From the NCBI RefSeq assembly GCF_000007345.1, contig NC_003552.1, forward strand, positions 806,001-870,000: a DNA stretch of 64,000 bases, read 5' to 3'. This DNA is from Methanosarcina acetivorans C2A (GTDB taxonomy: Archaea; Halobacteriota; Methanosarcinia; Methanosarcinales; Methanosarcinaceae). Shown here piece by piece: positions 49,054-56,058 of this stretch. A program made the position numbers and the translations under genes. The notes beneath the pieces are model-generated. The model had not been told where the DNA came from. It saw only the letters and a list, made by a program, of their open reading frames with translations, and searched no databases. How positions within the stretch are numbered: the first letter of the stretch is position 1; each line of letters starts with the position of its first letter.

Positions 49054-49461
49054 TTAAATATCCGAAAAATCAAGTGTAAATTTTTTCCTGTAAACCATTC
49101 CCTGAAATATTGCCACGAGGTCTCCTGCATCATCCGTGACGTTCACAGTATATGTGGCGATTTTAGGATTTATTGAAGTTTCCTTTGCTTCGGCCGTGAG
49201 AGTCCCTTTTGTTGCAGCTTTTACAAAAGAGATGTTTGAATTGATTCCAACTGCAGCAATTCCGTATGCATTTGAAGCTGCGGCAAAAGCAAGGTCTGCA
49301 AGGGTAAATATTGCGCCTCCCTGCACTGCCCTTAAAGCATTAAGGTGTTTTTCTTCTATCTCCAGCGTGGCTTTTGCATAGCCTGGAGCAGCTTCCAGCA
49401 GTTCTATTCCTGCATGTGCGGCAAACTTATCTTTTTTAAAAAAACGTTTGAGGTCTTCCAT
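49054..49461 (-). CDS. PaaI-type hotdog thioesterase
   Basis: 135 residues from the ATG at 49461, preceded by CCGGAG; the frame to 49494 is probably not used. HLNALRAVQGGAIFTLADLA is the PaaI hotdog signature, in which the aspartate and the preceding glycines shape the active site, followed by GINSNISFVKAATKGTL. Such enzymes hydrolyse acyl- or aryl-CoA thioesters in the cytoplasm. The specific substrate is unknown. It converges with the methyltransferase gene. Confidence 0.85.
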   Translation of the reverse strand: MEDLKRFFKKDKFAAHAGIELLEAAPGYAKATLEIEEKHLNALRAVQGGAIFTLADLAFAAASNAYGIAAVGINSNISFVKAATKGTLTAEAKETSINPKIATYTVNVTDDAGDLVAIFQGMVYRKKFTLDFSDI

Positions 49462-49802
49462 AATAGCGACTCCGGTAATTATCAGTAAAGTCACTTCCCA
49501 TTTGCTATATTTTTAATTAAAGTTATGCCTTTCGAATTAAACTCGGAAACACATTTTCTTCTCTTTCGTTCGAAAGCCTATTCACGTTTTTCTCTAATTT
49601 GTTTTCAAACTCCAGTTACTTTTGAATTCCTTTTAATACAGATTTCAGTCAAACTTTTGATTTTGAAACTGCGTTTCATGTTTTGCCTTTTAATGATAAT
49701 TTCACTACTTGTTTCGCTTTTTAATACTAATTTCACTACTTATTACTAAGTAATTTTACACTACTCGTAAGCGTCTAATAAGCCGGAGTTTTAGATACGT
49801 TT
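49462..49802. other. intergenic region with a short direct repeat
   Basis: TTTAAT-N-ATAATTTCACTACTT at about 49689 recurs at about 49718. Otherwise AT-rich with no gene. Confidence 0.4.
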
Positions 49803-50483
49803 ATGGATGGGAGGAAGAGATCCGAACTTGGGGTTGAATTGCTGGAAACCAATATACTGGGAATTAAAAAAGAAACCGGAGACGGATTTAAAACCGTTAT
49901 GATCGAAACAGATCGTGGAAGGGTGGAATGCCGTTACTATGCGGCAGAAGGAGCGAGCAAAGCGGTGATTATGGTCGGAGGGATAGGAGGGGGTTTTGAC
50001 ACTCCTGCAGATGGTCTTTATCCCCGTTTGTGTGTGGATTTGCTGGATTCCGGAATAAGTTCGCTAAGGATCAGATTCAGGTATCCTACCGATCTGGCAG
50101 AAGCTACTATGGATGTGCTTGTAGGAATTGAATTTTTAAAAGGTGAGGACATTTCCGGGTTTGGGCTGATAGGCCATTCTTTTGGAGGTGCTGTGGTCGT
50201 TCAGGCTGCGCATAACGAGAGCGCTGTAAAAACCATAGTCATTCTTTCCACTCAGAGTCTCGGAATTAGCCCGATCTCCAATCTTGCCGAAGGGGTTTCA
50301 GCGCTCTTGATCCATGGGGATAAGGATGAAACACTGCTGTCAGGGAGTTCGGTATACGCATATTTTCTGGCTCATGAACCGAAGAAACTCACGATATACG
50401 AAGGGGCAGGGCATGATTTAGCAGAAGTATCAGATGAAGTGTATAAAGAAGTAAAGAGCTGGATTGAAGACTACTTAAAATGA
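49803..50483 (+). CDS. alpha/beta hydrolase, dienelactone-hydrolase-like
   Basis: 226 residues with the nucleophile elbow GHSFGG (S126), a late aspartate in IHGDKDETLL and histidine in YEGAGHDLAE, completing an apparent Ser-Asp-His triad. The N-terminal VIMVGGIGGGFDTPADG forms the oxyanion region. The fold suits hydrolysis of esters or lactones in the cytoplasm, but no signal or cofactor motif tells the substrate. The gene is alone, immediately upstream of the sequon-rich secreted protein. Confidence 0.8.
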   Translation: MDGRKRSELGVELLETNILGIKKETGDGFKTVMIETDRGRVECRYYAAEGASKAVIMVGGIGGGFDTPADGLYPRLCVDLLDSGISSLRIRFRYPTDLAEATMDVLVGIEFLKGEDISGFGLIGHSFGGAVVVQAAHNESAVKTIVILSTQSLGISPISNLAEGVSALLIHGDKDETLLSGSSVYAYFLAHEPKKLTIYEGAGHDLAEVSDEVYKEVKSWIEDYLK

Positions 50484-50797
50484 GTCCTTTACGCCTTCCG
50501 GGCTACTATCTTTTATAAGTTTTATATTTTTTTCCTTCAGGTTTTTGTTCAACTGTTATTTCTGTTCAACCGTTCTTTATTAAAGCTCAATATTTAATTT
50601 CCATTTAATAGTTCTGGCTTCAAAAGTGCTTACTGATTGTGAAAAGCTGACTAACCCTCCATATAGTTAAATAGAGATTAAGTATTTATAAATTCTCCAT
50701 TTATTATTAAATTGGTTTTTATTAAACCTACTTTTATTTAATAGGGGATTATTTATTCAACTGGTCAGAAGACCAAATTCGTGTATGGGGGTATAGA
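50484..50797 (+). other. AT-rich promoter region of the sequon-rich gene
   Basis: Several TATA-like stretches (for example AAGTATTTATAAATTC near 50680) and TTAAT/ATTAA repeats. GGGGG stands before the ATG at 50798 as ribosome-binding site. No gene. Confidence 0.4.
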
Positions 50798-51814
50798 ATG
50801 AAAGTGAAACTAATAGTTTCTCTGATAGCTTTATGTCTAGCCCTGTCCATCGTATCCGTGCAAGCGCAGACAGACGCGGAAGAGGACATGGATAGCACAA
50901 ATCTGATCGTGACCGGAAATATTGCTAAGACCATTACGTGTAATATGACCGGTAACGCTGCTGTGATCGAAGAAATAAATAAGACTACCGAGGCGGATAA
51001 CGCTACCGAGGCAGACAATGCTACCGAGGCAGACAATGCTACCGAGGCGGACAACGCTACCGAGGCGGACAACGCTACCGAGGCGGACAACGCTACCGAG
51101 GCGGACAACGCTACTGAAGAGATAACGTGTACTGTGACTGGAAAAATGATTTTGATCAAAGATCTAAGTAATATGACCGAAAAGGCGGTTATAGTCGGAA
51201 AAACGGATAGTATGCCCGGAAACGTGGTTATTTTCGGAAAAATGGATAACATGACTGAAGACATGGGTAACATGACCGAAGGCATAGGTGACGTGACCGT
51301 ATTCATGGCCGGAAATATGACTGGAACCATGATGTGCAACATGACAGAAATGAATAAGACTATCGAGGGTGCGGATAACATGACCGTACTCATGGCCGGA
51401 AACATGACCGGAACCATAACAGGTGATATGACCAAAAAAGCGATTATAATCAAGAATATGGGCGATATGAAAGAAATAGCCGAAAAAATGAGTAATATGA
51501 CCTGGATAGCCGAAGACACGGATAACATGACTGAATCCACGGCATGTAATATGACCGGAAAAATGCTTGTAATCAAAACTATGGATAACATGACCGAAAT
51601 GGAAGAAGACATGGATGATATGGTCGAGATGGATGGAGATACGGCTGTAATCGGAAATATGGATAAAACGATGGAAATGGACAAGGCCGCGTACAACACA
51701 ACCGGAAAGATCATTGTGATCAAAAATATGGATGGTGCGATTGGAGTTGTGGCCAAGCCCATTACATTGAACGCGACTGAAAGAAGGTCTACAATCAGAA
51801 ATATGAATGAGTGA
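50798..51814 (+). CDS. secreted sequon-rich repeat protein
   Basis: 338 residues. A clear signal peptide (MKVKLIVSLIALCLALSIVS, cleaved near VQAQ) is followed by a low-complexity, Met-, Asp- and Asn-rich chain with no globular domain. It holds 23 N-x-T sequons and no N-x-S sequon by my count: seven lie in perfect EADNAT hexapeptide repeats (50990-51115) and most others are NMT in phrases such as MDNMTE and AGNMTG. Archaea glycosylate asparagine in exported proteins at such sites, so this may be a heavily glycosylated surface or extracellular polymer. No anchor is visible at the C-terminus. The opposite strand is also open but has no support. Confidence 0.75.
   Translation: MKVKLIVSLIALCLALSIVSVQAQTDAEEDMDSTNLIVTGNIAKTITCNMTGNAAVIEEINKTTEADNATEADNATEADNATEADNATEADNATEADNATEADNATEEITCTVTGKMILIKDLSNMTEKAVIVGKTDSMPGNVVIFGKMDNMTEDMGNMTEGIGDVTVFMAGNMTGTMMCNMTEMNKTIEGADNMTVLMAGNMTGTITGDMTKKAIIIKNMGDMKEIAEKMSNMTWIAEDTDNMTESTACNMTGKMLVIKTMDNMTEMEEDMDDMVEMDGDTAVIGNMDKTMEMDKAAYNTTGKIIVIKNMDGAIGVVAKPITLNATERRSTIRNMNE
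50990..51115 (+). repeat. seven 18-nt repeats encoding EADNAT
   Basis: GAGGCGGACAACGCTACC is repeated seven times; four units are nearly identical and the first three differ only at silent positions (GCA/GCG, AAT/AAC, GAT/GAC). Silent drift between copies suggests the protein sequence is under selection. Confidence 0.95.
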
Positions 51815-52424
51815 ACGATAGCGTGACCGAAAGAATTGTATGGACAGGTTAATTCAAGTTCGTTTCCATTACAAACTTCGGTCTGGAATAAGGGCTGTGA
51901 ATCTGCATATTCACAGTTCATCCTTTTTCATTTCTGAATTACATTATAACAGCTGTAGAATTCCCTGAATAAAATTTGTTTTTCTTCCGACCCATTGGAT
52001 AGAACCTGTCTTCAACAAACCTATTCTTTGCAAATCTATTCTCAATAGAGCTATTTTCATCAGAAACGAACTTTTTTGATTTTCATCTTAAATTCAGTTC
52101 TCTGGCTAAATATATTCATCTGGGATACCTTAAATGTCTTCACGAGGCTATAATATTCACAGATTTTTTATAAGGCCGCCCTTGCAAACCTTCTTATAGG
52201 CAAAGAAAAAGAAACTTCTTCAAAAGAGGTTGTAGACCTGCGCAGTGAAGTACAGTGGCTTTCCAATGAAATCAGCAGTTTTTCTTACAGGGAAAGGGAA
52301 AAAGGTGATTTTCAAGTAAGTATCTCGATATATTTCATTGACTATGCCTCTGCTCATTACTCCTTGCCTCTGCTCGTTACTTCTGTCTTTTCTGTCACCT
52401 TCATCCTTTCTTTCCCTGTTAATT
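51815..52424. other. region without an intact gene; possible gene remnant
   Basis: From about 52155 a plus-strand frame reads FYKAALANLLIGKEKE and KEVVDLRSEVQWLSNEIS before drifting into low-complexity sequence. It has no start codon and looks like the tail of a lost gene. Nothing is supported in 51815-52154. Confidence 0.3.
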
Positions 52425-54394: not shown

Positions 54395-55773
54395 CTTGTT
54401 GCTCAGCCGGATAATATCTTCTCCCTTTTTTCTATTACTGATATCAATCAGTTATTCGGCTATATCAATGGAACCAATTGAAAAAGTAAATGAACCGATC
54501 AGGGAAATCAACAATATTTCCTTCAGGATGACATTGGAGATGAGCCAGACCAGAAACACGACAGGGATCCGATGATACGGGATTTCAAGGAAATCCCGCC
54601 GGTCGGATAAACAGGAATGAAAAAGGGGAAAGCCACATGGATCTCGGGCAGGTGCATTGCCAGCTGATCAGGATTCCGATTACGGCAAAAGCAAAATCCA
54701 GGAGCGCAGGTTATATATACCGCTCTTTGTTAGAGATTCTGTCGCCCCGTATGTCCGGAAAACCGGTTTGTCTGGCAAGTTTTATGGCGATGAACCCGAA
54801 AAAAGCTGCAAGGATTATTGCTGCCCCTGCTCCGGTCCAGTTTTGTACGATCGGATGGTTCACGTCGAAATCTATCATGTCGCTTTTCCAAGCCCCATCA
54901 ATAAAACCAGGCCCAAGAAAGTCTTTTCCGAGGTAGTCAGTCTATCCACATTATAACTTTTGTTAGTGAATTTTACATAAATTTATCTGCCGGAGGTCCT
55001 GGCAGGAAAATTTGAAGTGTGAAGGGCTTTTGCAAGATCAGGTTTTTTTGATAGATCGGGTTTTTGAGAAATCTGTTTTTTTGATAGATCATTTTTTTGA
55101 AAAGTCAGGTTTTTTTGAAAAACGTCATTCTTCGGCATAGTAAATCGTTACAATGGTCACGGAGGTTTTTGCATCCACTCCTCCCATAAAGGGCTTTCTT
55201 TTAACCTTTCTTTTTCTGGTTTTTTATTTTTCCGGTGTCCGGTGATGCCGGCAACCAGCAGGAAAATATAAGGTGCTGCTTCGTATAATGGTGTAAAAAA
55301 CCTGTTTAAAGAGTATAATTCAGTAAAAATATCTTTTTTGTACTATATTCTTAATTTGGGGCCTTTATAACCTTTACAGGAGATCTTTCTGTTAAACTTG
55401 AGCGTCTTTTGAATAAAATTAATTTACTCAGTGAAATCTCACTGTAAACCAATCTTTCGGATATATTCCTGTTTAATAAGCATATCGTGAATTATATATT
55501 TCTTAAATAACATTCGTTTCTAATTTATATTTCTCTATCTATTATATCTTTCAAATACTAATTGCGTGTTGGTACAATTTTTTGGTATAATGTGAAAGTA
55601 CTTCCATCGGTTCATGAGGCGGGAATGGAATTAACCTTTACCGATTAATTAAGGAATAAATCCGATTATTGATTGGCAAAGTATTACTTATTCTGTGCAT
55701 GCCCCTACTGAAAGTGGACTGGATCAACGACCTGAAAATCGTATCAAAAAATACATTCTGGGAGTGTAAATAT
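54395..55773. other. 1.4-kb stretch without a supported gene
   Basis: Overlapping open frames at 54637-54956 give no recognisable domain and contradict each other. A TATA-like GGTTATATATACC lies near 54705. Between about 55035 and 55120 the units TTTTTTGATAGATC and TTTTTTGAAAAGTC alternate as a degenerate repeat. On the minus strand a short frame near 55194-55132 reads MGGVDAKTSVTIVTIYY and stops; probably a remnant. The 300 bp before the Cys-rich gene are strongly AT-rich. Confidence 0.35.
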
Positions 55774-56058
55774 ATGGGATTTAAGAAAGCATTGGCTATC
55801 TTGGTGTTAGTCTGTTTTGTACTGTCAATGACAATTGCTTCGGCAAGTGCATGTTCTGAAAATGACTGTGATTGCAAAGACAAGTGTGATTACAAAGACA
55901 AGTGTGATTACAAAGACAAATGTGATTACAAAGACAAGTGTGATTACAAAGACAAATGCGGCTATAAAAATAAATGCGGTTGCTTCTTCTTGTTTGACTT
56001 CCTATTTCTGTTTTTCGGAAATTGCTTTAACTGCATAACATGCTGCTGCATATTCTGA
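55774..56058 (+). CDS. small secreted cysteine-rich repeat protein (CDYKDK)
   Basis: 94 residues starting at the ATG at 55774, where a typical signal peptide begins (LAILVLVCFVLSMTIASASA). The mature part opens CSENDCDCKDK, then has four CDYKDK hexapeptides, a CGYKNK copy and CGC. It ends in a very hydrophobic, Phe-rich stretch followed by CFNCITCCCIF. An in-frame ATG at 55669 would hide the signal peptide and is unlikely. The even spacing of Cys, Asp and Lys suggests metal binding or disulfide-linked assembly at the cell surface; this is inference, as I recognise no family. Confidence 0.65.
   Translation: MGFKKALAILVLVCFVLSMTIASASACSENDCDCKDKCDYKDKCDYKDKCDYKDKCDYKDKCGYKNKCGCFFLFDFLFLFFGNCFNCITCCCIF
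55867..55974 (+). repeat. six 18-nt repeats encoding CDYKDK-type hexapeptides
   Basis: TGTGATTACAAAGACAAG recurs four times, alternating only at the last base (AAG/AAA); flanking units at each end are diverged versions (TGTGATTGCAAAGACAAG and TGCGGCTATAAAAATAAA). Confidence 0.93.

Follow-up and report, generated by a model that had tools for sequence, protein, structure and literature searches.

A protein of 338 amino acids from Methanosarcina acetivorans C2A, packed with N-x-T sequons, is probably a secreted surface or extracellular-matrix protein of the bottle-brush type, predicted from its sequence to be glycosylated by AglB at many sites. It is encoded in the 64-kb window that we analyzed (positions 806001 to 870000 of a single 5,751,492-bp contig; Table 1). 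The initial annotation had counted 23 sequons in this frame, and our recount gave the same number, with no N-x-S. All 23 lie in the mature 314 residues, where 20,000 shuffles gave 4.6 ± 1.9 (maximum, 14), and when the hexapeptide array was removed there were still 16, against 3.5 ± 1.7 in shuffles (maximum, 13). As comparators for density we used the open reading frames of at least 150 amino acids in the window and S-layer proteins checked in the same genome. With 6.8 sequons per 100 residues, the protein ranks first among 49 such frames, the other 48 having at most 1.2. The exclusive use of Thr, which had been noted, is real and yet uninformative: the composition predicts 0.6 N-x-S (probability of none, about 0.53) and the homologues carry 0 to 10, so the zero carries no weight. 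Met occupies the x position in 12 of the 23 sequons and makes up 11% of the protein, compared to a median of 2.3% for the window frames of at least 150 residues; His is absent, and the net charge is -35. Both the Met content and the acidity had been listed as oddities. Met richness is conserved, at 10 to 19% in the family, but the net charge of the homologues ranges from +6 to -71, which rules out acidity as a family trait and makes it a lineage-specific character.

Table 1. Features of the sequon-rich gene and its flanks (window coordinates)
Feature	Position	Strand	Remarks
Conserved promoter and 5' leader	50655..50797	+	72% mean column identity, nine species
TATA-box-like archaeal element TATTTATAAA	50683..50692	+	about 106 nt upstream of start codon
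Ribosome-binding-like purine-rich site GGGGGT	50787..50792	+	5 nt before ATG; invariant in nine orthologues
ORF of sequon-packed, putatively secreted protein	50798..51814	+	338 aa; signal peptide ending VQA, then Q
Signal peptide, residues 1-23	50798..50866	+	MKVKLIVSLIALCLALSIVSVQA followed by Q; predicted cleavage between VQA and Q, read by eye
First C-N-x-T-G module TITCNMTGNAAVIE, residues 45-58	50930..50971	+	C48, T51 and G52 invariant in 20 homologues
TEADNA x7 array, residues 64-105	50987..51112	+	seven perfect copies, seven N-A-T sequons
Conserved core EEITCTVTGKMILIKDLSNMTEKAVIVGKTDSMPGNVVIFGKMDNM	51116..51253	+	13-residue periodicity
GNMTGT / NMTVLMAGNMTGTITGDMTKKAI repeated modules, residues 166-212	51293..51433	+	beta strands, moderate pLDDT
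Terminator-like hairpin, downstream	51892..51919	+	about one such site expected by chance

Judged by its substitution pattern, the frame is a real gene. Among homologues, dN/dS is 0.25 to 0.56 (eleven pairs), which indicates purifying selection but fast evolution. An antisense frame of 390 amino acids (50749-51921, minus strand) is open along the entire length of the gene, and one could suppose that the plus frame is only low-complexity sequence or that the antisense frame is the true one. We regard this as highly improbable, as TTA, CTA and TCA sense codons are rare (4 in all), which explains why the antisense frame is open, the plus frame has a dN/dS below 1, and its signal peptide, start and ribosome-binding site are all conserved. 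The antisense frame was therefore rejected as a gene. Conservation extends about 145 bp upstream in nine species. When the upstream regions of nine orthologues were aligned, the TATTTATAAA block proved almost wholly invariant, and TATTTATAA and the GGGGGT before the ATG are fully so. The genome of M. acetivorans has no second full or strong copy of the promoter and leader, which rules out a regulon sharing this promoter in that genome.

The claim of a signal peptide was borne out by the cleavage site read by eye, which is kept in all 20 aligned homologues; V21 and A23 are invariant and Q22 and Q24 nearly so. The protein thus carries a putative export signal without a cytoplasmic domain, as a mucin-like protein would. 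A lipoprotein was ruled out, as no lipobox was found by eye at C13. Neither a C-terminal membrane helix nor a sorting motif that could act as an anchor was seen in the 338 residues, which leaves cell association without an explanation.

Absence of the frame from close relatives had been named as grounds for rejecting the initial proposal, but homologues, including full-length ones, are present in 24 of the 31 Methanosarcina genomes. In a scan of named records, all 12 loci belonged to Methanosarcina. A profile of the core (44 positions) matches 21 of the 31 Methanosarcina genomes; in 207 further genomes from the same class it has no match. Three further genomes of the genus have only divergent or array-like matches without the core, and in seven of the 31 no homologue was found, so Methanosarcina species can do without this protein. 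At the thioesterase site, no sequon-dense frame was present in the several kilobases read, either in four of the genomes without a match (L099, L100, L101 and L103) or in two with only weak or divergent ones (L102 and L104). Orthologues outside the genus were rejected as well: three weak matches from elsewhere in the same taxonomic family align mainly to the array and look like low complexity, and the profile of the core gave no match. In most species the gene adjoins the same thioesterase gene (49054-49494, minus strand) and often an alpha/beta hydrolase gene (49803-50483, plus strand). In the same comparison these neighbors are 65 to 92% identical, whereas the sequon-rich protein is only about 35 to 50% identical. 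No relative was found in Pfam, NCBIfam or the PDB by profile or sequence match, and our literature search on the protein itself, on Methanosarcina fasciclin proteins and on sequon-dense archaeal proteins returned nothing direct. By these searches it belongs to a genus-restricted family that has no description in Pfam, in NCBIfam or in the literature that we searched, and that is of a known general kind, the archaeal mucin-like glycoprotein. A small, secreted-looking, Cys-rich frame with CDYKDK-type tandem repeats and no Pfam match also lies in the window (55669-56058, plus strand); it is unrelated to the sequon-rich protein, and relatives of it occur downstream in two other loci (L053 and L060).

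The perfect hexapeptide array that had been reported was confirmed as TEADNA x7, the copies of which differ only at synonymous third positions. Together with the 23 sequons, it gives the protein the tandem repeats dense in candidate glycosylation sites that are expected of a mucin-like molecule. AlphaFold2 (AF2) gives the array a low pLDDT (about 28 to 35 in the model of the whole protein). Across species, the units at this position are TEADNA, GNMTKM, GNMTKI, DNMTGNMT, NNVTDDT, NQTQNMT and others, so that unit and length vary while N-x-T is kept. Among the family homologues, 116 of 138 Asn residues at the array position lie within sequons, compared to 382 of 656 elsewhere. In 14 homologue pairs, which are related and hence not independent, Asn is retained in 83% of cases within sequons and 64% outside them, and Thr or Ser in 87% and 72%, respectively. 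This better retention is the best evidence for selection on the sequon and not on the repeat alone.

Variable stretches separate the conserved modules of the protein. The core follows the consensus TGK-VIIKD-GNMTEKA-IIGK-DNMPGK-VIFGK, with an identity of 0.23 at lag 13 and 0.03 to 0.12 at other lags, and N125, T127 and E128 of its NMTE sequon are invariant. In the 20 mature homologues, 85 of 88 Cys residues precede N, D, S or T, and 55 of the 88 precede a complete sequon. The AF2 model of the whole protein has a pLDDT of 46; the core alone reaches 67, with a pTM of 0.57, and consists mostly of strands. The 13-residue period raised the idea of a beta-solenoid, for which AF2 gives strands of moderate confidence. 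With the core model, Foldseek gave no match at an E value of 0.001 or lower, the best VIA Z was 3.6, and no solved or viral structure was a convincing match. The main rival to our reading holds that NMT is mainly structural, in a Met-rich beta-repeat with N and T facing outward and M in the core, so that most sequons would be a side effect of the repeat and would carry few glycans or none. The frequent Met at x, the Met content throughout the family and the periodic core with its predicted strands would all fit. We nevertheless consider it unlikely, because N-x-T is retained in the TEADNA array, which is free of Met and predicted to be disordered, and likewise in units of the NQT, NAT and NVT type elsewhere, and because Asn and Thr are retained better inside sequons than outside.

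The family is part of a wider set. A DNA pattern of clustered NMT codons reveals further sequon-array genes in the genus. In M. acetivorans, a surface protein with Fasciclin and DUF4430 domains (L105:2688-5039; C1:2065.3-2068.0 kb) has 78 sequons in 783 amino acids, and its gene lies 6 kb from a paralogue of the sequon-rich gene. In a Methanosarcina genome of 4.14 Mb (G007), the corresponding protein (L106) has 1014 amino acids and a GNQTD array that is long. A 642-amino-acid orthologue in genome G008 (L040:5095-7023) has DUF4430 fused at its C terminus, the only case of this domain among the orthologues. As DUF4430 occurs both in this orthologue and in the FAS1 array protein, the family appears to mix with surface-protein modules. 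Two divergent relatives (L034:4119-5042 and L039:3425-4183), in which Met makes up 24% and 18%, respectively, and sequons reach a density of 14 per 100 residues, consist almost purely of GNMTGNMTCNMTGTM. Several species also have a downstream gene, here called gene B (L051:7671, L056:7739 and L047:6992), which closely resembles the sequon-rich gene in promoter, leader and signal peptide but has a different body; its promoter contains the TATTTATAAA element in three species, and the L047 copy ends in a cupredoxin domain. Gene B is absent from the M. acetivorans genome.

The cupredoxin domain bears on another explanation, namely, that the protein is a Met-rich secreted binder of Cu(I) or Ag, or an oxidant scavenger, that is glycosylated for solubility. 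The Met content of the family and its higher value in a divergent relative, the Cys residues that repeatedly precede sequons, and the cupredoxin encoded in one species under the same promoter and signal peptide could be understood in this way. Set against this are the lack of His in the protein and of Met in its array, the presence of cupredoxin in only one of three gene B proteins scanned, and a genome of M. acetivorans that has no gene B at all, and we give this explanation a low probability.

Among known archaeal proteins, the nearest in kind include halomucin (Hmu1) of Haloquadratum walsbyi and its relatives, which are likewise secreted and have direct repeats as well as sites that may be glycosylated, and halomucin is a proposed hydrated shield (PMC1544339, PMC3119063). 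In both proteins the length changes through the repeats; halomucin, which we compared by its description only, has 7,837 to 9,159 amino acids and a domain organization like that of animal mucins (PMC1544339, PMC3119063). The sequon-rich protein, in contrast, is small, Met-rich and very dense in N-x-T, with few Ser residues and no Pfam domain. The S-layer tile proteins of Methanosarcina (DUF1608/PF07752; MA0829, PMC3361143) share the signal peptide and are surface glycoproteins of the same organism, but those that we checked in this genome have only 0.6 to 1.3 sequons per 100 residues, roughly one-tenth of the density found here, and the sequon-rich protein shows no C-terminal membrane helix like theirs. 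A genome-wide search for PF07752 found 20 places, none at this locus, and the protein itself had no match, which rules out membership in the S-layer tiles. The FAS1/DUF4430 protein of M. acetivorans is also similar in type: it is secreted-looking and has NMTGNATE and GNQTD arrays and about 10 sequons per 100 residues, but the window protein has neither of its domains. A further relative is the paralogue at C1:2074213-2075256 (L002), another chromosomal site, which is 48% identical, with a signal peptide and the same core; its 347 amino acids contain 19 N-x-T along with 4 N-x-S, and a NITENMTENVTDNQT-type stretch stands where the array would be. The initial description as a purpose-built, mucin-like scaffold thus holds in part. 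A dedicated secreted multi-sequon protein is strongly supported by homologues, synteny, selection and an array turnover that keeps N-x-T, and "mucin-like" serves as an analogy for the mode of action. The description overlooked the conserved beta-rich core with its 13-residue repeats and C-N-x-T-G modules, as well as membership in the wider set of FAS1/DUF4430 sequon-array surface proteins.

Sequons, an export signal and AglB in the genome are all present, as expected of a candidate AglB substrate; four STT3/AglB homologues of M. acetivorans score above the Pfam cutoff. In M. mazei, hexose and N-acetylhexosamine have been detected on exported proteins, and the lectin eluate that contained these glycoproteins also yielded an AglB, which together indicate that the genus glycosylates exported proteins (PMC4350412); the parallel to the sequon-rich protein is one at the genus level. 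For PglB, a bacterial enzyme and not the Methanosarcina AglB, a sequon with Thr at +2 works better as an acceptor (PMC7226087).

In the mechanism that we favor, Sec would export the protein and signal peptidase would take off residues 1 to 23, and the AglB oligosaccharyltransferase would glycosylate many of the 23 N-x-T sites. Along the disordered array, the sequons would give rise to a short bristle of glycans; other sequons would lie in or beside the beta-rich repeat core with its C-N-x-T-G modules. Replication slippage or unequal exchange would lengthen or shorten the array, and selection would retain one N-x-T per unit; for these two steps the pattern is seen in the family and the process is what we infer. 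As array length changes while each unit keeps its N-x-T, the number of glycans could shift quickly between species. Such a protein would act as a hydrated element of the coat or matrix, with repeat number as its tuner, and its role may lie in hydration, in aggregation or in the control of access. A more tentative idea, which we hold to be possible though doubtful, is that the genus possesses its own toolkit of bottle-brush proteins with N-glycans, in which compact beta-repeat cores are combined with fast-changing N-x-T arrays and the repeat number in the DNA sets the number of glycans at the surface.

Most of what is known about archaeal N-glycosylation comes from S-layer proteins, archaellins and pilins. 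In a genetically tractable methanogen, a small protein with 23 natural, near-uniform N-x-T sites is a very good candidate for a reporter of site occupancy, choice between AglB paralogues and glycan structure, and among archaeal mucin-like glycoproteins its design is unusually testable. It would show an archaeal cell coat evolving through changes in repeat number, and it provides a defined candidate component for the outer surface of Methanosarcina, which is poorly known and governs aggregation and contact with viruses or partners. If the toolkit idea is true, it would be an N-linked counterpart of the O-linked mucins and could control aggregation, virus access or electron-conducting contact.
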